The notes under the pieces are model-generated. The model was not told the DNA's origin. It did not search any database and saw only the letters and a list, made by a program, of their open reading frames with translations. Positions 19,567-33,895 of a DNA stretch of 64,000 nt are shown here, one piece after another. The position numbers were made by a program, and so were the translations under genes. Source of the DNA: Rhizophagus irregularis. Taxonomy: Eukaryota > Glomeromycota > Glomeromycetes > Glomerales > Glomeraceae. Numbering within the stretch: position 1 is the stretch's first letter; each line of letters starts with the position of its first letter. The DNA lies in NCBI RefSeq assembly GCF_026210795.1, contig NC_089444.1, positions 3,214,501-3,278,500 on the forward strand, read 5' to 3'.

Positions 19567-19650
19567 CTATTTTTATTAATTTAAAAATTTTATTATTAAA
19601 TAATTTATAAAATTTACTTTTACATTAAATTAATAAATTTTATTACCCGT

Positions 19651-21030
19651 TGTCACCCCCGTCTGCCACCCGGTGGTAAACAAACTTCCCTGCTTTAACG
19701 TATATACGTTCTCCACGAAACATTAATATTCTTGCTTGGTTTAGTTTTATTACTACTTAACTTTCAAATTGCGATAGCTCTCGCCACGATATTTCATCCA
19801 TTATCTTCTTTCAAAATACGATAGTTCTCTTTACAAAAGTTTATATTTTATTCATTTCATAATTCTTGTTATGACATTAAATTCACCATGAATTTGTCCA
19901 ATTAAAATTAATTAAGCGAACATTACAGTAAAGTTTAGGGCGAACCTATTACCTTTAAAATAACATTACGCTTTACTAACAATTAATTAAACAAAATTAC
20001 TTTTTCATCATAAGAAAATAGTAACAAAAACAATCGAAACAATTAATTTTCATATCAAAGGGTATTTTATTTATTCTTCATAAAATTCACAATTAACTAA
20101 TTTACTTAAAGTTTTACATCGTATCTGACGACTGTGGAATTCACTTCCCATTCTGCTCCTATTTAAACCAACTTTCTTATTCTTTCTTTTCCTACTTCTT
20201 ATTTCTTTCTAATATTTTATATGTTATCTTTTATGCGCTATCTTATATGCTATTTTATATGTTATCTTTTCTAATATGTTATACTATTTTAATATGCTAT
20301 CTTTTCTTTAAAATAATCTTTCGCATATTATGTCGTAAAGATATAATCCCTCTTTTGTGGCTGTGCTATCTTTTCTTTAAAATAAAATAATCTTTCAAAT
20401 ATTATATCGTAAAGATCCATCTTTTGTGGCTGTGCTATCTTTTCTTTAAAATAAAATAATCTTTCAAATATTATATCGTAAAGATCCATCTTTTGTGGCT
20501 GTGCTATCTTTTCTTTAAAATAAAATAATCTTTCAAATATTATATCGTAAAGATCCATCTTTTGTGGCTGTGCTATCTCTTCTTTAAAATAAAATAATCT
20601 TTCAAATATTATATCATAAAGATCCATCTTTTGTGGCTGTGTTATCTTTTCTACTGCGTCTCGTCAGCTATTCTTCTACTGCGGCTGCAGTTCATCAATA
20701 TTTTACATGTTCCTATTTTTTTTGTTCCTTTAATTCGCTATCCTTCCTTTTTATATGATTTATCATTTGTGGCTTATGATTACTCCTCCTAATTGTTCCT
20801 ATTGTTGAACTTGATAAACTGGTTGCTAAGCCACATCGATCAACTCCCCACTTGATCTATTGGTTCTCCGTTAATCATTTAATAAACATTACATCATGTA
20901 GATCATTCCTTCTCCTAAAAGTTTATCCTTTCCGGTTAATTTTATCCAATCATGTGACTTTCTATCGTTTGATCTTTTATTCCATATTATTCCTCCATAT
21001 TATGCGATTACTTCAGTATCTATGGCTACA
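19651..21030 (-). repeat. 3' LTR of the Gypsy element
   Basis: This is 1,380 bp and matches 31337-32716 almost exactly. On the coding strand it starts TGTAGCC and ends GGTGACA. It is preceded on that strand by a purine-rich tract (AGGTGGGGGGCAAAC, 21031-21045), the likely polypurine tract. Confidence 0.92.
20330..20645 (-). repeat. 69-bp tandem repeats inside the LTR, about 4.5 copies
   Basis: A unit of 69 bases with CTTTTGTGGCTGTGCTATC repeats more than four times; the other LTR has the same array at 32016-32331. Because 69 is a multiple of three, one minus frame stays open and reads MDLYDIIFERLFYFKEKIA again and again. I read it as a non-coding U3 repeat, possibly an enhancer, rather than a gene. 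Confidence 0.75.
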
Positions 21031-21060: not shown

Positions 21061-22248
21061 TCAAATTCGAACTATTACTTCAAAATTTGTCCTATCAATA
21101 TATTCCTTCAGTAATTCACCATTCACTGGTGTTTTCAATATCTTCCCTTCCATAGTTTTAATTCTGTATGATCCTTTAGAAATTATCTCATGTACATAAT
21201 AAGGTCCTTTCCATTTTTCTTCTAACTTTCCAGACCATTGTTTCTCTTTTGCTGCATCATAATATAGTACTTTATCTCCGATTTGTAATTTCTGCTTTAT
21301 TCTATTCTTTTTATCATGGTACGATTTTTGTTTTTCCTGAGATTTCCTGACATTTTCTTTAGCTTGATTCCTAATGTTTGGTAATCCTTCGATCAACCCA
21401 TTAACTCTCTCTGCCATGGTAATTTCCTTATCTTCTAAATCTAATAATGTCTTCATTTGTCTCCCATATATTAAATATCCTGGTTCCATTTTCGTTGAAT
21501 CATTCCTTTTAGTTCGATACGCGAACAATACTCCTGGTACTTTCAAATCCCAATCTTCGATATTACTTAGCTTTGCTAATGATTCACATAATGTCTTATT
21601 AAATCTTTCAATTAACCCATTAGTTTTTGGATGATAAGGCGTCGAAAAGTTATGTTTTATCTGAAATTCCTCCATTAATGATTTCACTAATTTATTATTG
21701 AAATGACTTCCTCTATCACTCAATATCTTCTTTGGACATCCATGCCTACATATTATATCTTCATAAATAAATCTTGCAATTTCCTTAGCATCTGCTGTTT
21801 CCAATGCCTTTGCTTCAGGCCATTTTGTAAAATAATCCATCGCTGTAACTATATATCTATTATTTCTCTTTGTTACTGGTAATGGTCCCACTACATCAAT
21901 CCCAATTTGATAAAATGGTTCTATAACTTTGATTACATTCAGTTCATGTTTTCCTATTGGTTTTCCTCTCCTCTGACAATTATTACATGATTTGACATAA
22001 GCTTCTACATCTTTTCTCATCCCTTTCCAATAATACCCATCCTTGATCCTATTATACGTTGCATCTATTCCAAAGTGTCCTGATAATTCATGATCATGAG
22101 CTATGTACATTAACCCTTCAAATTCATATTTTCTTATCACTCTTAGTCTTTTCTCATCTTTTATTTTGTAAATTAATCCTCCTATAATTTCATATTCCCG
22201 TTCGTCGTTGATATTCCTCGCTATCCTATTATATTCTTCCTCTTCCAT
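21061..22248 (-). CDS. Retrotransposon integrase, 395 residues
   Basis: It begins at an ATG (22248). An HHCC zinc-binding domain is visible (H53, H58, C88, C91). The catalytic core has D118 (QIGIDVVG), D178 (ILSDRGSHF) and E214 (GLIERFN), giving the D-x59-D-x35-E spacing of retroviral integrases. A C-terminal GPY/F-type module (EEKWKGPYYVHEI) follows at about residue 344. There is no obvious chromodomain. It would insert the cDNA into host DNA. Unlike most Gypsy elements it is in its own frame after the RT unit, separated by a 145-bp spacer with short TTTACAACACCTTAAT repeats. How it is translated is unclear; splicing or reinitiation are options. Confidence 0.92.
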   Translation of the reverse strand: MEEEEYNRIARNINDEREYEIIGGLIYKIKDEKRLRVIRKYEFEGLMYIAHDHELSGHFGIDATYNRIKDGYYWKGMRKDVEAYVKSCNNCQRRGKPIGKHELNVIKVIEPFYQIGIDVVGPLPVTKRNNRYIVTAMDYFTKWPEAKALETADAKEIARFIYEDIICRHGCPKKILSDRGSHFNNKLVKSLMEEFQIKHNFSTPYHPKTNGLIERFNKTLCESLAKLSNIEDWDLKVPGVLFAYRTKRNDSTKMEPGYLIYGRQMKTLLDLEDKEITMAERVNGLIEGLPNIRNQAKENVRKSQEKQKSYHDKKNRIKQKLQIGDKVLYYDAAKEKQWSGKLEEKWKGPYYVHEIISKGSYRIKTMEGKILKTPVNGELLKEYIDRTNFEVIVRI

Positions 22249-22393
22249 GTCTATGTTGTAATTCTAAAAGCTAAAGTGTTGTAAAAGGTTGAAATGTTAT
22301 AAAGGGTTGAAGTGTTGTAAAAAAAAAATTAAGGTGTTGTAAAAATTAAGGTGTTGTAAAAATAAAGCGTCGTGATAACTGTTCCATATATTT
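22249..22393 (-). repeat. Spacer with short tandem repeats before integrase
   Basis: About five imperfect copies of TTTACAACACCTTAAT (minus strand) fill the gap between the small ORF and integrase. A CTTTTAG acceptor-like site lies just before the integrase ATG, so the spacer could be part of an intron. No clear matching donor was fixed. Confidence 0.5.
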
Positions 22394-22735
22394 TTAATTT
22401 TTATCTCTTGATTTATTTTTGATCCTTGGTATTTCTATCCTTCTTATATATTTTTCGTTCCCTATAATCAATTTAGATTGTACCCATCCTAATCCTTTTT
22501 CTATTGGTCTTTCTTCTATTATCATATTGTTTCCATCTTCCATAATTAATTTCACCTTTTTCTCTTTTAGTCTTATTATAATGTGTACATCTACTAGTAT
22601 GAAGTCTTCTTCTTCTTCGATCCTTAAATGGATAATTGTTTCGTTCTCTTCTTCTTTTATAGTCACTTTCCATATCTTATCGACCTTTACTCGATAGGTA
22701 AGAAACCAATTCATATAACAATCTCCTAATACCAT
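22394..22735 (-). CDS. Retrotransposon ORF of unknown function, 113 residues
   Basis: An ATG-started frame lies between the RT-kinase and integrase frames. It alternates acidic and hydrophobic residues (ETIIHLRIEEEEDFILVDV, KVKLIMEDGNN), which suggests a beta-rich fold, and ends in a basic patch (RRIEIPRIKNKSRDKN). There is no Cys motif or membrane segment. It lies in the same frame as the upstream RT-kinase, only five codons past that frame's TAA stop, so it may be a C-terminal extension made by readthrough or by reinitiation. I do not recognise the family. Confidence 0.6.
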   Translation of the reverse strand: MVLGDCYMNWFLTYRVKVDKIWKVTIKEEENETIIHLRIEEEEDFILVDVHIIIRLKEKKVKLIMEDGNNMIIEERPIEKGLGWVQSKLIIGNEKYIRRIEIPRIKNKSRDKN

Positions 22736-22750
22736 TTTGGAAATATAATT

Positions 22751-25084
22751 TTAAGCTCTTTGGTGTTTTTCTATCTCCTTATATACTTTTCTCCAACTAC
22801 TATCGTCATTCCTAACTTCAATTTGACTGTATCTTTTGGTATCTTTGTATACATCCTGGTTTTCTTTAAACATTTTAACCATGTCCAAATATTCATTTTT
22901 CTTTAATGTTGGGTATGACGATTTCTCCATTTTCTTCATTTCTCTTCCAATATAATTTTCCCAACATACATCGCCATCTTTTTCCAAAAATATCACTATT
23001 GATTCATCTATTGTTCCTTTTAATCTGAATATTTCTTTTTCCATCTCATGGTTCCCATGTGGAGTAATTAATCCTCTGTTGAAACTTTTCGTCTTCTGAT
23101 AATAATATTCGCAATATGGCGATTTGTCTAGAATTATTATATCCGTATCTTCATCATATTCTAATATTCTTCTGTTTATTTGTTCTACTACTTCCTTTCT
23201 AAATTTCCATTCTGTTTCTAATTTTGATTCGTGAAATTCACCTTTGTCTTTTCTTCTCCTTTTGAATGTATTAAATCTTACTTTTAATCCTTGCTTTTCC
23301 CACTCTTTAATCAAATTTTGTACTATACTTGTTTTTCCTAATCCATCCACTCCATCGATTATAATAACTTGTGGCTTATTTTCTCTTCCCAATTTCTTTA
23401 ATAATTCTTTTTCTGTCCTTTCCTCCAAATTCAAAAGTATTGCTTCTTTATTGGTAAAATATTTTTCATCATCCCATCTCCCTTTAAATCTTTTAGCATT
23501 ATACCATTTATTCCTAAATTTGATATATCTCAATTTCCCCTTATTACTTTCTATTTTTGTTATTTCTTGATTCTCGTTCCTTTCTGTTTCTTTTTCTTTA
23601 AATCTCAGTCTTGATAATCCATCTGCATTTTTAATTTTCTTTCCACTTCTATGTACTATTTTAAAATCAAATTGTTGTAATTTCATTACCCATCTTGCTC
23701 TCCTTCCCGTTTGTTCCTTTCCGTCTGTTAATCCTTTTAATGCTACGTGATCTGTTATCACTATAAATTTCCTTCCTACTAAATATTTCTGAAAATGTTG
23801 TATTCCCCAAAATACCGCTAAGCATTCCAATTCTGTTGGTGGATAATTCTTCTCTGCTCCAACTGTACTCCTACTTGCGTAAGCTATTACAACCTCTTTA
23901 TTTTCTTCATTCATTTGAGCTAACACTGCTCCTAGTCCTATCTTAGATCCATCAGTTATCAATATAAATTCTCTGCTGAAATCCGGATATACTAAAATTG
24001 GATTTTCTGTCAATTTTGTCCTTAATACGTCAAATGCTTCTTGTTGTTCTTCTTTCCATTCAAACTTTTCATTCTTTCTTGTTAAGTTAAGCAAAGGTTT
24101 TGCTATCTTCGAAAAACCTTTTATAAATCTCCTATAATATGAACATAATCCTAAAAATGATCTTACTTCTGTGACAGTTTTCGGCCTCCTCATATTTTCT
24201 ATTTTCTCAACTTTCTCTTTATCCGGTCGCAATCCATCTCTTCCTACTATATGCCCTAAAAAATTTATATTTCTCAATCCAAACTGACATTTCTTCAATT
24301 TCACAATCATATTATTCTCTCTCAATTTACTCAATACTTTATCTACATGTTCTATATGCTCCTCAAAATCTTCTGAATAAATCATTATATCATCTAAATA
24401 CACTGTAACAAATTCTCCTATATATTCTTTTAATATTTTATCCATTAATCTCTGAAATGTTCCTGGTGCATTCTTCAATCCAAATGGCATAACATTGTAT
24501 TCATATAATCCTTGTGAACAAATGAATGCTGTTTTCTCTTTATCTTCTTCTGCCATTTCTACTTGATGATATCCTGCTGCTAAATCCAAACTTGTGAACC
24601 AACTTCCCTTTCTAAATTTTTCTAACAATTCGTCTATCCGGGGTAAAGGATATTCATCTGACTTTGTCACATTATTTAGCTTTCTATAATCTATACAAAA
24701 TCTATAATTTCCAGTTTTCTTTCCTGCTAACGTTACTGGAGATGCCCAATTACTCCATGATTCTCTTATCTTCCCCATCTTTAACAATTGTTCAATTTCT
24801 TTCTTTATAAACTTTCCTTTTTCATCAGTTTCTTTATATCTCTTTTGTGCTATTGGTCCTTGATTTTCTTCAATTATTATTTCATGTTTAACTGTATTTA
24901 TCCTTCCCAATTTCTCTTCGTCATATTCGAATATATCTTCATATTCCCTTATCAATTTTTTAAATGCTATTCTCTCCTCATCGCTCATTTCTCCCAGATG
25001 TGTTTTCTTTTCAAATTTTTCTTCTTTGCTCTCATTTAGCATCTTTACCGTCTCTCCTTCATTCAGAAAGCCAAGACCATTCAT
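22751..25084 (-). CDS. pol: Reverse transcriptase-RNase H fused to a thymidylate-kinase-like domain
   Basis: A 777-residue frame. RT spans about residues 80-335, with D167 in SLDLAAGYHQ and the YLDD active site at 229-232. RNase H follows (D378 in ITDGSKIG, E420 in ELECLAV, D445 in ITDHVALK, D488 in NADGLSRL). After a basic linker (about 500-570) comes a P-loop domain of about 205 residues: Walker A GVDGLGKTS at 578-586, IILDKSPY at 651-657 in the place of the DR(Y/W) motif, and FLEKDGDVCWENY at 699. Order, length and the DGxDGxGK(T/S) signature fit thymidylate kinase. The likely role is making dNTP precursors for cDNA synthesis (inference). The start ATG overlaps the protease stop as ATGA. 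Other P-loop nucleotide kinases are the main alternative for the C-terminal domain. Confidence 0.9.
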   Translation of the reverse strand: MNGLGFLNEGETVKMLNESKEEKFEKKTHLGEMSDEERIAFKKLIREYEDIFEYDEEKLGRINTVKHEIIIEENQGPIAQKRYKETDEKGKFIKKEIEQLLKMGKIRESWSNWASPVTLAGKKTGNYRFCIDYRKLNNVTKSDEYPLPRIDELLEKFRKGSWFTSLDLAAGYHQVEMAEEDKEKTAFICSQGLYEYNVMPFGLKNAPGTFQRLMDKILKEYIGEFVTVYLDDIMIYSEDFEEHIEHVDKVLSKLRENNMIVKLKKCQFGLRNINFLGHIVGRDGLRPDKEKVEKIENMRRPKTVTEVRSFLGLCSYYRRFIKGFSKIAKPLLNLTRKNEKFEWKEEQQEAFDVLRTKLTENPILVYPDFSREFILITDGSKIGLGAVLAQMNEENKEVVIAYASRSTVGAEKNYPPTELECLAVFWGIQHFQKYLVGRKFIVITDHVALKGLTDGKEQTGRRARWVMKLQQFDFKIVHRSGKKIKNADGLSRLRFKEKETERNENQEITKIESNKGKLRYIKFRNKWYNAKRFKGRWDDEKYFTNKEAILLNLEERTEKELLKKLGRENKPQVIIIDGVDGLGKTSIVQNLIKEWEKQGLKVRFNTFKRRRKDKGEFHESKLETEWKFRKEVVEQINRRILEYDEDTDIIILDKSPYCEYYYQKTKSFNRGLITPHGNHEMEKEIFRLKGTIDESIVIFLEKDGDVCWENYIGREMKKMEKSSYPTLKKNEYLDMVKMFKENQDVYKDTKRYSQIEVRNDDSSWRKVYKEIEKHQRA

Positions 25085-25671
25085 TTTTCCTCATCCCTCT
25101 TTTCTCTATCAGTTTTTACAATCGATAACAACTCTTCTTTTTCCATCTCCTCATATTCATCTTCAACCTCTGACTCTTCACTAGAATTGCCATCTATATC
25201 ATCTATATTCTTTGGATCTCCATTAAATTCACCCCTATTCCCTGACTCCTCAAATTCAACATTTTTCTTTCCTCTAAAATCAATTGGTATTTCATATATT
25301 CCATTATCCCATTCTATTGTTAACAGACCTTCTTTCATATTTATTATCCCATATCTTAATAAATCAGTTCCTAATATCAAATCTTTTCTTCCCGAGTCAA
25401 TTACTTCGAACTCTAAAGGTATTTCTAAATTTTCATCAATTTCTATTCTAATTTCCACTCTTCCTAATGAAGCTATGTTATTTCCATCTGCTATTGTTAA
25501 TACGACATTACTTTCCTTCGTTATTGGTATATTTAATTCTTTTCTCAGTTCATTCGTTATTACTGAAGGTCCTGCTCCTGTATCAACTAATGCTCTAATC
25601 ATTTTTCCTTCAATTATTATATTACATCTTGTTGCTTGTGATTTTTCTTCTTTCTGATTAATATTCTTCAA
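25081..25671 (-). CDS. pol: Retropepsin-type protease frame, about 196 residues
   Basis: The aspartic protease core is clear: RALVDTGAGPSVI (catalytic DTGA), then ILGTDLLRYGI matching the conserved LG-x-D-L-L element of Ty3-type proteases. The C-terminal third is strongly acidic. The frame has no ATG at its start; it is in phase with the nucleocapsid frame upstream and separated from it only by a TGA at 25689-25687 followed by CTA. It would cut the Gag-Pol precursor. Expression by stop-codon readthrough is inferred from the UGA CUA context. The frame ends in TGA, overlapping the ATG of the RT frame. Confidence 0.88.
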   Translation of the reverse strand: MKNINQKEEKSQATRCNIIIEGKMIRALVDTGAGPSVITNELRKELNIPITKESNVVLTIADGNNIASLGRVEIRIEIDENLEIPLEFEVIDSGRKDLILGTDLLRYGIINMKEGLLTIEWDNGIYEIPIDFRGKKNVEFEESGNRGEFNGDPKNIDDIDGNSSEESEVEDEYEEMEKEELLSIVKTDREKRDEEK

Positions 25672-25686
25672 TTCCCCCGAGTGTAG

Positions 25687-26532
25687 TCAATATCTCAAAC
25701 CATTTAATAATTTCTTCCTTACTTCTGGTCTTTCATTCATCATTTGTCCCCAATTAATTGGTACGCTTGAATTTACAAATTGTTCAAATGGATCAAAATC
25801 TCCAACATTTGGTATATTTCGATTTAACTTCACTTTCTCGTTTGTACATTCTCTAGCAAAATGTCCTTGTTGTCCACAATTGTGACACCTATTATTATTC
25901 TTTCTAGTTTCATATCCTTTCTGTAATTGTTCTTTTGTAAAACCCCTCTTATTATTCTCCTGTGCTTTTTGCTGTTGTCCTTGCCATTGTGCATTTCTTC
26001 TTCTATCTCTTTCATCGTTCATAACCTTGTCTTTATTTCTTTCACTCTTTCTAGGTGGTACTGGGAACATATCATATCTCTCCTCATCTTCATAGTTATT
26101 CACTTCGTATCCATCGAATCCATTATTATAGTTATCATATCCACCACCCTCATTATATCCATCATATTCATCATTATATTCCATATTATACACATTATAT
26201 CCTTCACCATAATATTCTTCATCAAGGTAATTAACTTGATTATTTTGGCTATATGACCCTTTATTATTTCCTCCATATGATCTTCTTTGACCTTCCCTAC
26301 AAACTCTAGAAGTATGTCCTTTTCTTCCACATGTATAGCAAGTCATTCTATCCCAGTTCATATTATTTCTTTGGACATTATTATTTCCGATCGGTCTCCT
26401 ATCATTCCTATTCCTTTGCATTATATACGCTTCATTTCTTTGCATTACATGTGCTTCCAACCTTTTCATTCCATTAATTAACTCATCCCATTCCTCACTT
26501 TTAACTTCTTTTTTTTTGTAATTCTTTCGCAA
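25687..26532 (-). CDS. gag: Nucleocapsid frame with two CCHC knuckles, about 281 residues
   Basis: Two zinc knuckles are visible, CYTCGRKGHTSRVC (about residues 65-78) and CHNCGQQGHFAREC (216-229). They are separated by a Tyr/Gly/Asn-rich, low-complexity segment (about 85-150) and a basic stretch. It binds the genomic RNA during particle assembly. The open frame begins at a TTG and overlaps the end of Gag by about 30 bases in the +1 frame, so it is most likely made as a Gag extension through a frameshift. It ends at TGA, followed by CTA and the in-phase protease. Confidence 0.85.
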   Translation of the reverse strand: MRKNYKKKEVKSEEWDELINGMKRLEAHVMQRNEAYIMQRNRNDRRPIGNNNVQRNNMNWDRMTCYTCGRKGHTSRVCREGQRRSYGGNNKGSYSQNNQVNYLDEEYYGEGYNVYNMEYNDEYDGYNEGGGYDNYNNGFDGYEVNNYEDEERYDMFPVPPRKSERNKDKVMNDERDRRRNAQWQGQQQKAQENNKRGFTKEQLQKGYETRKNNNRCHNCGQQGHFARECTNEKVKLNRNIPNVGDFDPFEQFVNSSVPINWGQMMNERPEVRKKLLNGLRY

Positions 26533-27310
26533 TTGGATTCATTCCTTTATATTCATTTGTCTTTTCTTTCAAAATTTCTTCCATGTTTTTCTCTTGTCCT
26601 ACTCGTTTCATATCTAACCCCGTTGTTTTCATTAACAACTCATCCTTCGCTTCCTCTTCTCTTTTTGCTTCGTTAACTGCATCATTCAGATTCGTCGGAT
26701 TACTTCTCCTAACATGATAACCTAGCATAGCATCTAACCCTTGAATAAAATAATTCACTTGATATAAATCATCTAACGCATGACCTCTAGTTGCAACTCT
26801 TAATATTGACCTAAATCTTCTAGTATATTCCTCAACACTTTCATTTGTTCCCTGTCTAATTCTTGTTAATTCTAACATCTTTCTTCTTTGAACATCATTC
26901 CTAGTAAATCTGTCGATTAATCTTCTTTTTAAATTCCTGTCCTCATTATGGTCACACCAATTCACTAAATTAGCTGCTACCCTTTCTTTTTCCTCATTAT
27001 ACCATTGTAATGCAATTCCTCTTAAACAAGTTATAGCTATGTTTGCCTTATTTTGTCTACATACACCTCCTCCAACATTTCCTTCTGGTCGTCCACTTAC
27101 TGTAAATGCTATCTCAAATTGTCTAATCCAATCATTAATATCTTCATCCTCTTTTCCACTAAAAGTTGGCATACCTACTATTCCCCCTATTCCTGCAGTC
27201 TGAATCCTATCCGCCAAAGTCTGTCCTGCTCCTAACGCATTATCTAATGCATTTGGTGCCAATCCCATAGCATTCTCCATTATTCTTCTTATTTGTGCTT
27301 CATTTGCCAT
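26501..27310 (-). CDS. gag: Gag capsid, 269 residues
   Basis: The frame starts with ATG at 27310. The Retrotrans_gag-type capsid signature is readable: PTFSGKEDEDINDWIRQFE, then ALQWYNEE, then RRKMLELTRIRQGTNESVEEYTRRF-type residues. It forms the shell of the virus-like particle. The frame upstream of the ATG is open for 63 further codons to a single TAA (27502-27500), beyond which the 697-residue ORF0 reads in the same phase. The end of Gag overlaps the nucleocapsid frame at a run of nine A residues. Confidence 0.9.
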   Translation of the reverse strand: MANEAQIRRIMENAMGLAPNALDNALGAGQTLADRIQTAGIGGIVGMPTFSGKEDEDINDWIRQFEIAFTVSGRPEGNVGGGVCRQNKANIAITCLRGIALQWYNEEKERVAANLVNWCDHNEDRNLKRRLIDRFTRNDVQRRKMLELTRIRQGTNESVEEYTRRFRSILRVATRGHALDDLYQVNYFIQGLDAMLGYHVRRSNPTNLNDAVNEAKREEEAKDELLMKTTGLDMKRVGQEKNMEEILKEKTNEYKGMNPIAKELQKKRS

Positions 27311-27499: not shown

Positions 27500-29593
27500 T
27501 TATATTTCATCCGGACTTAATATTTCTCCAGTCTTTTCTGAATCATCTGTATTATCTTCTTCTGATTCTTCATTATCACTCTTTTCACCACTTTCTTCAC
27601 TATCTATTATTCCTGCTTGTTCTTTCAACAACTTATCTAACTTTTTCTTCAATTCTTTTTCCGACTCATTCTTATTTTCTTGAAAGATTTCAATGAATTC
27701 TTTATCTAAAATTTCTCCATCTGTATATCCCATACTAGTTAATCTTAACAATTCTTCTTCAGTTATCATTGTTCCAATATCTTCAAAAATCTTTTGCAAT
27801 CTTTTTACCCGATCATCAATTTCATCAATATCTTCTTCCTCACAATCTTTGCATATAGTTCCTTCTAATCTAAACATATCATTCATCCATCTTATTTCGC
27901 ATCTTTCGCACCAAGTTGTATTCTCATTTAACCACTTATGAATCTCTTTTCTTAACTCTCTATTTTCTAATTCTATTATTCCCATATACCTTTCTATGAA
28001 TTCTTCTGTTACCATTATTCGATTATTAACTCCAAAATTCTTTATTCTTTGAATTTCCGATACATCCATTTCGTATCCTAATTTTTCTAAGTTGTTTTTT
28101 AGTTCTATTAATTCATCTTGTTCATCTTCCCGTATTTCCCGATTACATTCTTCACATCTGCCATTTTCTTTTGATATTATATAATCTAATTTCTGCTTAT
28201 TGCATCTATTACATATTATCGTACTCAAATCCATCCATTCCTTTATGTCTTCAGACTTATCAAATCTCCCTTCCTGAAAAATATAGTATCTTATAAAATT
28301 ACTTGTTGACAGTATTCCCGTTTCTATCTTTTCTTTTATTCCAAATTTCATTATTTCTCTGACGAGCTTTTCCTTTGGGTTTACTATTAGTTGTCTTAAT
28401 CCTATTCTTATTTCACTTAACTTCCACGTTTTATCTTCTACTATTATTTCTATTTCTTCTTCAGAATCATGTATTTCATTATCTTCTCCTTGCTCTATCT
28501 CTATAAGCTTGAATTTTTGTGTTCTTTCCATCGCTTCTTTTAAATCTGTTACAATCCATTCTATTACTCCATCATCTATTCTCAATATAATAGGATCTCT
28601 TGCGTCTATATCTTCACTATCTTTAAATGTCATGCTATCTGTCAGTTTTCTTACAGTATCTTCTTGCAAATTTTCTCCCTCAGATAACATCTTCTCGAAC
28701 CATTCTGGTGAATCATTTTCATGATATGTATGTATTTGTTTACCTTCATATTTGTCATTCCACCAGTACCTGAATCTTTCAAATCTAAGATATAAACTCA
28801 CATTAAAATTCTTTTTCATTTCATAACTTTCTAAGCTATCTTCACTTTCTGAATCTTCTGGTTCTTTTGTAAAGCCCCTAGTATCTATAAATATTCTTAT
28901 TATCTTTTGTACCATATTCCTGTGATATTCGTGAACATTTTCTATGTCTATATTCCCATATTCCATATTGGACATTAATTCTTTTACTTTCTCCTCATTC
29001 GTAGCTATTCCTTCTTCTTCATAAAGTAATTCCCTGAATGTCTTTATTGCTCCCATCTTTACCCGTAATGGTTTAACTTCTTTCGATGTGATCTTGTACC
29101 ATTGCCAAAATTTTTCAAACCTTCTTTCAACATCCCAATCTTCCAAAATATATTTGTGTTCTATTAATTCAGGATTCCCAATTAATCTATCAAATACTTC
29201 ATTCTCTAAATCTCCTTCAATACAATCTCTTACAATTACTAATATAATTGTTCGTAATCCTTTTTCTTTCATTTTTGGTTGTATTCTATATCTTATTGAC
29301 TCTGTTATTCTATCCATTATGTCTCTACATTTTCCCTTGTGTATTGTATCTTCTCTTTCTGAATTATCTATACTTAATAAATCTATTACTCCCTTGATCG
29401 TTACATTATTATATATTATTATTGTATCTTCGAACTTAAATAATGCATCCCAAAATTTCTTGAATACCATTGGTTCATTTCCTATCGGATGACATAATTC
29501 ACAATTTAAACATTCATCTAATTCTCCCGTTCTTAACTCATGTTCTTCTTTATGTGTCCTATATTCACTTTCCCATTGATGGTACCATTCCAT
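27500..29593 (-). CDS. ORF0: unknown 697-residue protein with two Cys4/helix modules
   Basis: The frame starts at an ATG (29593) after a 1.7-kb leader. The N-terminus has CLNCELCHP. The C-terminal half contains an apparent internal duplication: a Cys4 ribbon (CNRCNKQKLDY..CEEC, and CERCEIRWMND..CKDC), each followed by a helical, Leu/Glu-rich segment (LEKLGYEMDVSEI and FEDIGTMITEEEL). The last 60 residues are highly acidic. It ends in TAA, and the acidic frame continues (DGSDEDFEEEES) into Gag, so ORF0 and Gag may once have been, or may still be by readthrough, one protein. An ORF of this size before Gag is unusual for Ty3/Gypsy. I do not recognise the family. Confidence 0.8.
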   Translation of the reverse strand: MEWYHQWESEYRTHKEEHELRTGELDECLNCELCHPIGNEPMVFKKFWDALFKFEDTIIIYNNVTIKGVIDLLSIDNSEREDTIHKGKCRDIMDRITESIRYRIQPKMKEKGLRTIILVIVRDCIEGDLENEVFDRLIGNPELIEHKYILEDWDVERRFEKFWQWYKITSKEVKPLRVKMGAIKTFRELLYEEEGIATNEEKVKELMSNMEYGNIDIENVHEYHRNMVQKIIRIFIDTRGFTKEPEDSESEDSLESYEMKKNFNVSLYLRFERFRYWWNDKYEGKQIHTYHENDSPEWFEKMLSEGENLQEDTVRKLTDSMTFKDSEDIDARDPIILRIDDGVIEWIVTDLKEAMERTQKFKLIEIEQGEDNEIHDSEEEIEIIVEDKTWKLSEIRIGLRQLIVNPKEKLVREIMKFGIKEKIETGILSTSNFIRYYIFQEGRFDKSEDIKEWMDLSTIICNRCNKQKLDYIISKENGRCEECNREIREDEQDELIELKNNLEKLGYEMDVSEIQRIKNFGVNNRIMVTEEFIERYMGIIELENRELRKEIHKWLNENTTWCERCEIRWMNDMFRLEGTICKDCEEEDIDEIDDRVKRLQKIFEDIGTMITEEELLRLTSMGYTDGEILDKEFIEIFQENKNESEKELKKKLDKLLKEQAGIIDSEESGEKSDNEESEEDNTDDSEKTGEILSPDEI

Positions 29594-31336: not shown

Positions 31337-32716
31337 TGTCACCCCCGTCTGCCACCCGGCGGTAAACAAACTTCCCTGCTTTAACGTATATACGTTCTCC
31401 ACGAAACATTAATATTCTTGCTTGGTTTAGTTTTATTACTACTTAACTTTCAAATTGCGATAGCTCTCGCCACGATATTTCATCCATTATCTTCTTTCAA
31501 AATACGATAGTTCTCTTTACAAAAGTTTATATTTTATTCATTTCATAATTCTTGTTATGACATTAAATTCACCATGAATTTGTCCAATTAAAATTAATTA
31601 AGCGAACATTACAGTAAAGTTTAGGGCGAACCTATTACCTTTAAAATAACATTACGCTTTACTAACAATTAATTAAACAAAATTACTTTTTCATCATAAG
31701 AAAATAGTAACAAAAACAATCGAAACAATTAATTTTCATATCAAAGGGTATTTTATTTATTCTTCATAAAATTCACAATTAACTAATTTACTTAAAGTTT
31801 TACATCGTATCTGACGACTGTGGAATTCACTTCCCATTCCGCTCCTATTTAAACCAACTTTCTTATTCTTTCTTTTCCTACTTCTTATTTCTTTCTAATA
31901 TTTTATATGTTATCTTTTATGCGCTATCTTATATGCTATTTTATATGTTATCTTTTCTAATATGTTATACTATTTTAATATGCTATCTTTTCTTTAAAAT
32001 AATCTTTCGCATATTATGTCGTAAAGATATAATCCCTCTTTTGTGGCTGTGCTATCTTTTCTTTAAAATAAAATAATCTTTCAAATATTATATCGTAAAG
32101 ATCCATCTTTTGTGGCTGTGCTATCTTTTCTTTAAAATAAAATAATCTTTCAAATATTATATCGTAAAGATCCATCTTTTGTGGCTGTGCTATCTTTTCT
32201 TTAAAATAAAATAATCTTTCAAATATTATATCGTAAAGATCCATCTTTTGTGGCTGTGCTATCTCTTCTTTAAAATAAAATAATCTTTCAAATATTATAT
32301 CATAAAGATCCATCTTTTGTGGCTGTGTTATCTTTTCTACTGCGTCTCGTCAGCTATTCTTCTACTGCGGCTGCAGTTCATCAATATTTTACATGTTCCT
32401 ATTTTTTTTGTTCCTTTAATTCGCTATCCTTCCTTTTTATATGATTTATCATTTGTGGCTTATGATTACTCCTCCTAATTGTTCCTATTGTTGAACTTGA
32501 TAAACTGGTTGCTAAGCCACATCGAGCAACTCCCCACTTGATCTATTGGTTCTCCGTTAATCATTTAATAAACATTACATCATGTAGATCATTCCTTCTC
32601 CTAAAAGTTTATCCTTTCCGGTTAATTTTATCCAATCATGTGACTTTCTATCGTTTGATCTTTTATTCCATATTATTCCTCCATATTATGCGATTACTTC
32701 AGTATCTATGGCTACA
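31337..32716 (-). repeat. 5' LTR of the Gypsy element
   Basis: This 1,380-bp copy is nearly identical to 19651-21030. It begins, on the coding strand, directly after ACGG, the last four bases of exon 3 of the host gene. It would drive transcription toward lower coordinates. Confidence 0.92.

Positions 32717-33895
<1,179 letters not shown>

Follow-up and report, generated by a model that had tools for sequence, protein, structure and literature searches.

The 64,000-nt stretch of Rhizophagus irregularis DNA analyzed here (the window, in which all coordinates are given unless a contig is named) carries, in minus-strand orientation, a complete 13,066-bp Ty3/Gypsy element whose Pol protein contains a thymidylate kinase-like P-loop domain between RNase H and integrase. 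Pol occupies a single open frame of 777 amino acids plus stop at 22751–25084 on the minus strand, where the plus strand is closed. Domain calls were made by Pfam profile search of the translated open reading frames (ORFs) and place RVT_1 at Pol residues 122–280 (E 1.6e-41) and RT_RNaseH at residues 368–472 (E 1.1e-35), followed by a linker and the kinase. The linker spans residues 494–568 (75 amino acids; 23381–23605, minus strand); from residue 515 on, the predicted structure shows it with confidence as a folded segment that extends the kinase at its N-terminus. The kinase domain (residues 569–777, 209 amino acids; 22754–23380, minus strand) holds the Walker A sequence GVDGLGKTS at residues 578–586 (23327–23353) and, at the place of the DR motif of thymidylate kinases (TMPKs), DKSP at residues 653–656 (23117–23128), which aligns with DRS in a phage TMPK. 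The ORF and the Pfam matches bear out the original prediction that reverse transcriptase (RT)–RNase H is here fused to a P-loop domain, and both motifs lie at the residues it had named. That the kinase takes the place of integrase holds insofar as it directly follows RNase H and the linker, but the integrase is kept downstream in an ORF of its own (21061–22248, minus strand) with an H2C2 zinc finger and an rve core.

The likeness of the kinase domain to thymidylate kinase is beyond chance. Two alignments were used, one of 11 kinase members with the window's included (A1) and a wider set of 26 (A2). The profile phrog_761, named thymidylate kinase, matches the window's kinase along nearly the whole domain (E 1.8e-15) and is matched by all 11 A1 members; Pfam Thymidylate_kin (PF02223) is matched by 11/11 of A1 at E ≤ 0.1 and by 24/26 of A2 at E ≤ 0.001, and several relatives bear PF02223 in precomputed annotation. 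The window's DGVDGLGKT agrees with the TMPK P-loop consensus [DE]GxDGxGK[ST], and the predicted kinase model, with a predicted local distance difference test (pLDDT) score of 91, shows the TMPK fold and has S. aureus thymidylate kinase as its nearest structure. Profiles and structure thus place the domain among the nucleotide kinases and not outside them. A series of results weighs against this assignment. Thymidylate_kin covers Pol residues 576–742 at E 0.0034 in the full protein, under the Pfam cut-off, the window's kinase scoring 24.6 bits against a cut-off of 27, and a whole-genome scan with this profile returned four places only, none of them a copy of the window's own family (family A). 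The NCBIfam dTMP kinase equivalog TIGR00041 gives a score of 20, the cut-off being 83.25, and NCBIfam ftsY is matched by 22/26 A2 members compared with 24/26 for dTMP kinase. By sequence, the solved structures that match best are FtsY (1.9e-4, confined to the P-loop part) and thymidylate kinase (0.13); by structure, deoxyguanosine kinase and deoxycytidine kinase lie within 1 Z unit of thymidylate kinase, and a first, weaker model ranked deoxycytidine kinase at the top. The DR[YFH] motif of TMPKs is not present, DKS standing there in all 11 A1 members (DK for DR), and of two alignments only the shallower one pairs the arginine of a conserved FRK motif with the phage TMPK arginine of LDR. NB-ARC also matches Pol (E 0.00096), covering the P-loop and the start of the kinase part only. 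The TMPK-like domain of the original prediction stands on phrog_761, Thymidylate_kin, and the fold, whereas dTMP as its substrate is weakened by DKS, by the equivalog score, and by the nearness of the deoxynucleoside kinases. The kinase is probably catalytically active and its substrate is rather likely to be a deoxynucleoside monophosphate (dNMP); dTMP in particular may be that substrate, a narrower assignment to which we give not quite even weight. If the module were instead active on another substrate while sharing this fold, either as a deoxynucleoside kinase (dNK) salvaging deoxynucleosides to dNMPs or as a broad (deoxy)nucleoside monophosphate kinase, it would still feed reverse transcription, though by a route other than dTMP. 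We consider this unlikely, if the foremost of the alternatives: structural nearness aside, the profiles favor TMPK, the dNK profile PF01712 being matched by 2/26 members at E ≤ 0.001 and by 4/11 at E ≤ 0.1, and, by generally known features of the two enzymes, the GVDGxGK P-loop is TMPK-like and a basic FKRRR occupies the site of the dNK catalytic glutamate (EP motif).

Residues of the kinase outside the P-loop are clearly constrained as well. Conservation was counted over 133 protein and 42 locus rows (175 in all), a large share of them partial, related, or duplicates of one copy (L001 being the window's element, L034 overlapping L022, and L035 overlapping L010), and is given per row with a letter at the position. 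The P-loop lysine is conserved in 148/152, the aspartate and lysine of the DK motif in 157/160 and 159/160, the FRK arginine in 157/160, and the GRE arginine in 148/149; the last lies where the LID arginine is expected, in a region that the profile alignments do not reach. These counts bear on the idea that the P-loop domain has lost its part in nucleotide synthesis and serves either as an RNA kinase (PSTK- or KTI12-like, with the primer tRNA as a conceivable target) or, gated by ATP, as a spacer or chaperone. The KTI12 profile does match 15/26 members (PSTK 1/26), and FtsY and signal recognition particle (SRP) P-loops match the N-terminal part of the kinase. The best KTI12 value (8.3e-7) is nonetheless weaker than that of Thymidylate_kin (8.5e-8), the FtsY matches stop at kinase residue 37–56 whereas phrog_761 and Thymidylate_kin span nearly the whole domain, and DK, FRK, and GRE are conserved like the P-loop, beyond the needs of a mere ATP switch. 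We regard such a role as distinctly improbable.

The fusion is not confined to the window. When the genome (146.7 Mb, 32 contigs) was searched with full-length Pol, 86 matches came up, of which 18, the window's included, span residues 1–776/777 at 98–100% identity and make up family A; 16 of these 18 are free of internal stops. The kinase alone gave 151 matches, some being two pieces of one broken copy, and among the kinase pieces compared, divergence from the window's copy reaches 46% (L042). Three further families carry the module. Family B (L035) has RT–RNase H, linker, and kinase, then integrase; family C (L034, L065, L066) has RT–RNase H and kinase in a frame of ~704 amino acids without linker, then integrase, while a further C locus, L068, has no integrase frame of at least 200 amino acids listed; in family D (L033), RT–RNase H forms one ORF and the kinase is joined to integrase in the next (593 amino acids). 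The linker measures 75 amino acids in A, 79 in B, and 5 in C. At all loci read through the whole stretch (the window's, L033, L034, L035, L065, and L066), the kinase lies between RNase H and integrase and only the ORF breaks shift. The same fusion, which the original prediction had proposed to seek in other Rhizophagus Gypsy elements, is thus found in 18 near-identical copies and in families B and C. The proteins nearest to the window's Pol are from R. irregularis DAOM 181602/197198, and the kinase module also occurs in R. clarus, Glomus cerebriforme, and metagenomic proteins. Some kinase proteins appear free-standing, in ORFs of ~250–265 amino acids; two of these, P0064 and P0061, come from contigs equal in length to those of the RT–RNase H proteins P0150 (4010) and P0155 (9392), respectively, which is suggestive of a shared contig but no proof of it. 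Several public gene models of these Pol pieces carry ill-fitting names (phosphodiesterase-like, KRAB-A domain-containing, NYNRIN-like). A sister family, E, has RT–RNase H ~60% identical to the window's and integrase ~200 bases past RNase H, and none of the 12 family E loci read has a kinase match. Since family E does without it, the module is accessory; the RT–RNase H tree gives no firm branching order for families A–E that would tell loss in E from original absence. For P0139, an RT–RNase H protein from a different isolate whose sequence stops behind RNase H, the closest copy in this genome reaches only 75%.

The kinase also appears to move independently of the rest of Pol. In trees of 12 rows, RT–RNase H groups families A and B (100/99), whereas the kinase groups A and C (99/98). 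Protein identities, taken from one representative per family, follow the same division: A–B and A–C identities are 75 and 66% for RT–RNase H and 82 and 59% for integrase but 63 and 86% for the kinase, and the linker is 65% identical between A and B, family C having five residues only. The tree conflict and the matching identities together point to a kinase-only transfer between the A and C lineages, most simply an acquisition of the kinase alone by family A with the C lineage as donor, or a transfer in the opposite direction; the breakpoints would lie near the P-loop and near the stop codon. L017 combines a family A RT–RNase H (98%) with a kinase closer to that of B (87/89 in the tree), and L016 is alike; among the mosaics L016, L017, and L043, RT–RNase H is near family A and the kinase nearer family B. 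The route of exchange was presumably template switching between co-packaged RNAs, and swapping of the kinase piece alone fits a selectable unit.

Purifying selection on the kinase is evident within each family. Ratios of nonsynonymous to synonymous change per site (pN/pS), from Nei-Gojobori counts along minimum spanning trees, are 0.113 in A (8 copies), 0.090 in B (7), 0.053 in C (10), and 0.089 in D (7), with binomial P values against neutral site counts, in which transition bias and base composition are ignored, of 4.7e-7, 2.7e-36, 6.8e-58, and 1.9e-12, respectively. The corresponding RT–RNase H ratios are 0.049, 0.057, and 0.037 in A, B, and C. Between the A and C kinases, the ratio of nonsynonymous to synonymous substitution rates (dN/dS) is 0.094; dS is near or beyond saturation for most other family pairs. 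With pN/pS of 0.05–0.11 and presumed active-site residues nearly invariant, the test of selection on the kinase motifs that the original prediction had proposed comes out as purifying. A functionless passenger, chance capture, or assembly artifact is highly improbable: plant Gypsy lineages do have extra ORFs without a known domain (PMC9289625), but here copies lie on many contigs and recur in other Rhizophagus and Glomus proteins and in metagenomes, selection is purifying, the cassette is reused, and the divergence of the kinase pieces contradicts a single recent amplification.

As to the source of the module, the host has its own PF02223 thymidylate kinase on contig C13 (about 3242213–3242981), with a CDKAGKST P-loop and a DRYAYSG motif in separate, exon-like open stretches. 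Neither GVDGxGK nor DKSP of the element is copied from these, and because the P-loop and DRY types differ, descent from the host TMPK is unlikely on this comparison of motifs. A kinase-profile search, in which candidates had to share 5-residue words so that distant donors could escape, gave 95 matches at E ≤ 0.001; those with a named organism are from Rhizophagus or Glomus cerebriforme and the rest are metagenomic or unnamed. In viral_contigs, none of 60 pattern matches was confirmed, and phage records gave one weak match, the thymidylate kinase of Vibrio phage vB_pir03 (E 0.5). A phage or bacterial TMPK as donor is only a lead. The genome's top Pfam Thymidylate_kin match (47.9 bits) is L029 (contig C24, 3288271–3288729), which has two internal stops and none of the motif patterns tried.

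The surrounding element satisfies the description of Ty3/Gypsy in its long terminal repeats (LTRs) with TG…CA ends, its short target-site duplication, and its order of protease, RT, RNase H, and integrase, the kinase standing between the last two. The 3' LTR (19651–21030) and 5' LTR (31337–32716), both on the minus strand and 1380 bp long, have 3 mismatches in 1380 positions; being nearly identical, they indicate a young insertion. CCGT is duplicated on the left (19647–19650) and right (32717–32720). Each LTR holds about four 69-bp tandem repeats (20208–20721 and 31894–32407), open on the minus strand as four 23-residue units. A candidate primer-binding site, TGGTGCATGCTCCGAGA, lies a few nucleotides past the 5' LTR; no tRNA gene is present within the 64-kb window. 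All ORFs are on the minus strand. ORF0 (27500–29593, 697 amino acids) has two Cys-pair motifs and no Pfam family above cut-off; it shares the frame of the capsid ORF with one TAA between them, and sections of it have matches in family D (L033, where the frame is open through to Gag) and in family C (L034). The capsid-like Gag ORF (26501–27310; Retrotrans_gag 5.3e-13) enters a run of nine A's (within 26490–26545) before the overlapping nucleocapsid-like ORF with zinc knuckles (25687–26532), which lies in another frame, and this run is a possible frameshift site. The nucleocapsid-like ORF ends in UGA followed by CUA CAC, and the aspartic protease ORF (25081–25671; Asp_protease_2 1.3e-11) continues in the same frame across this junction (25681–25689). 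UGA-CUA is a known leaky-stop context. UGA-CUA CA occurs at the Gag/protease junction in 8/8 family A loci (the window's own included), in one locus each of B, C, and D, and in 8/12 of family E, where one locus has UAA CUA CAC and three differ; UGA CUA CAC also closes the frame before Pol in 3/3 additional C loci (loci: the window's, L033, L034, L035, L048–L059, L065, L066, and L068). This pattern makes it likely that read-through from Gag into protease is programmed and conserved. The ~500-bp stretch between kinase and integrase (22249–22750) is present in 8/8 family A loci, has no match among the other loci compared, few of which extend there, and contains a 113-residue ORF (22394–22735). 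Two predicted proteins, P0026 and P0028, have kinase and integrase joined, and splicing past the Pol stop was considered as a possible route to integrase expression.

Taken as a whole, the observations are best explained if Ty3/Gypsy elements of Rhizophagus and its relatives captured a TMPK-like P-loop phosphotransferase, a (deoxy)nucleoside monophosphate kinase supplying deoxynucleoside triphosphates (dNTPs) for reverse transcription, and house it in Pol behind RNase H and ahead of integrase; we give this reading somewhat more credence than doubt. Translated in one chain with RT–RNase H, the kinase should accompany RT into the particle and would presumably be packaged there. With ATP it would convert dTMP, or dNMPs generally, to diphosphates, and host nucleoside diphosphate kinase would complete the conversion. 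The 20–32 kb part of the window, which holds the element, has 30–32% G+C, so its cDNA demands mainly dATP and dTTP. TMPK is the step special to dTTP, and dNTPs, above all dTTP, would thus not be limiting for the synthesis of A+T-rich cDNA. By a slight preference, we take dNTP supply to be the benefit of the module. R. irregularis transposons are expressed in spores and more highly in colonized roots (PMC8647823, PMC11075540). Nuclei at these stages may often not be replicating. The elements may make part of their own dNTPs in the particle, uncoupled from host S-phase supply, and shuffle the module as a selectable cassette, a wider picture that we doubt slightly more than we credit. Two further facts count against these proposals: the kinase evolves faster than RT–RNase H, at ~1.4 to 2.3 times its pN/pS, and the kinase-less family E lives in the same genome, so that elements of this kind can exist without the module.

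Pol proteins that include a nucleotide enzyme are a known class, within which a nucleotide kinase of the P-loop type, set between RNase H and integrase, would be a novel form. A dUTPase is present in Gag-Pol of fungal Ty3/Gypsy elements (PosPlaTy3 and others), bdelloid rotifer LTR elements, planarian Burro, and retroviruses (PMC2864245, PMC5408684, PMC6431247), and Gypsy relatives bear it at several Pol positions (PMC2864245). Those elements resemble ours in having a nucleotide-metabolism enzyme in Gag-Pol that was captured repeatedly and in varied places, but dUTPase is a hydrolase removing dUTP, whereas the enzyme here is a predicted phosphotransferase that would make dNTP precursors, and its place is between RNase H and integrase. 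Its various Gypsy positions make nucleotide-pool adjustment a plausible common theme. With thymidylate kinases (PF02223, S. aureus TMK, PHROG 761), the module shares fold, P-loop type, motif order, YQ after the DR position, and a candidate LID arginine, and it differs in DK for DR, in the sub-cut-off scores of this copy, and in its fusion to RT–RNase H or integrase. An orchid Gypsy element with an AlkB-like N6-methyladenosine (m6A) demethylase likewise kept a captured enzymatic domain across replication rounds, but in a separate ORF and for another function (PMC9289625). Searches of an open-access library, with most subscription journals and all preprints outside it, turned up among the entries listed no retrotransposon described as carrying a thymidylate or nucleoside kinase. 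The genome itself offers a testable system, since module-bearing families, a sister family that lacks the kinase, and one whose module was swapped occur in it side by side. To our knowledge, the dNTP adjustments known in retroelements are dUTPase in Gag-Pol and the removal by some lentiviruses of a host dNTP-lowering factor. On-site dNTP supply, if true, would be more than another nucleotide enzyme in Pol: reverse transcription relies on dNTP supply, and a nucleotide kinase in Pol would be a positive, biosynthetic solution.
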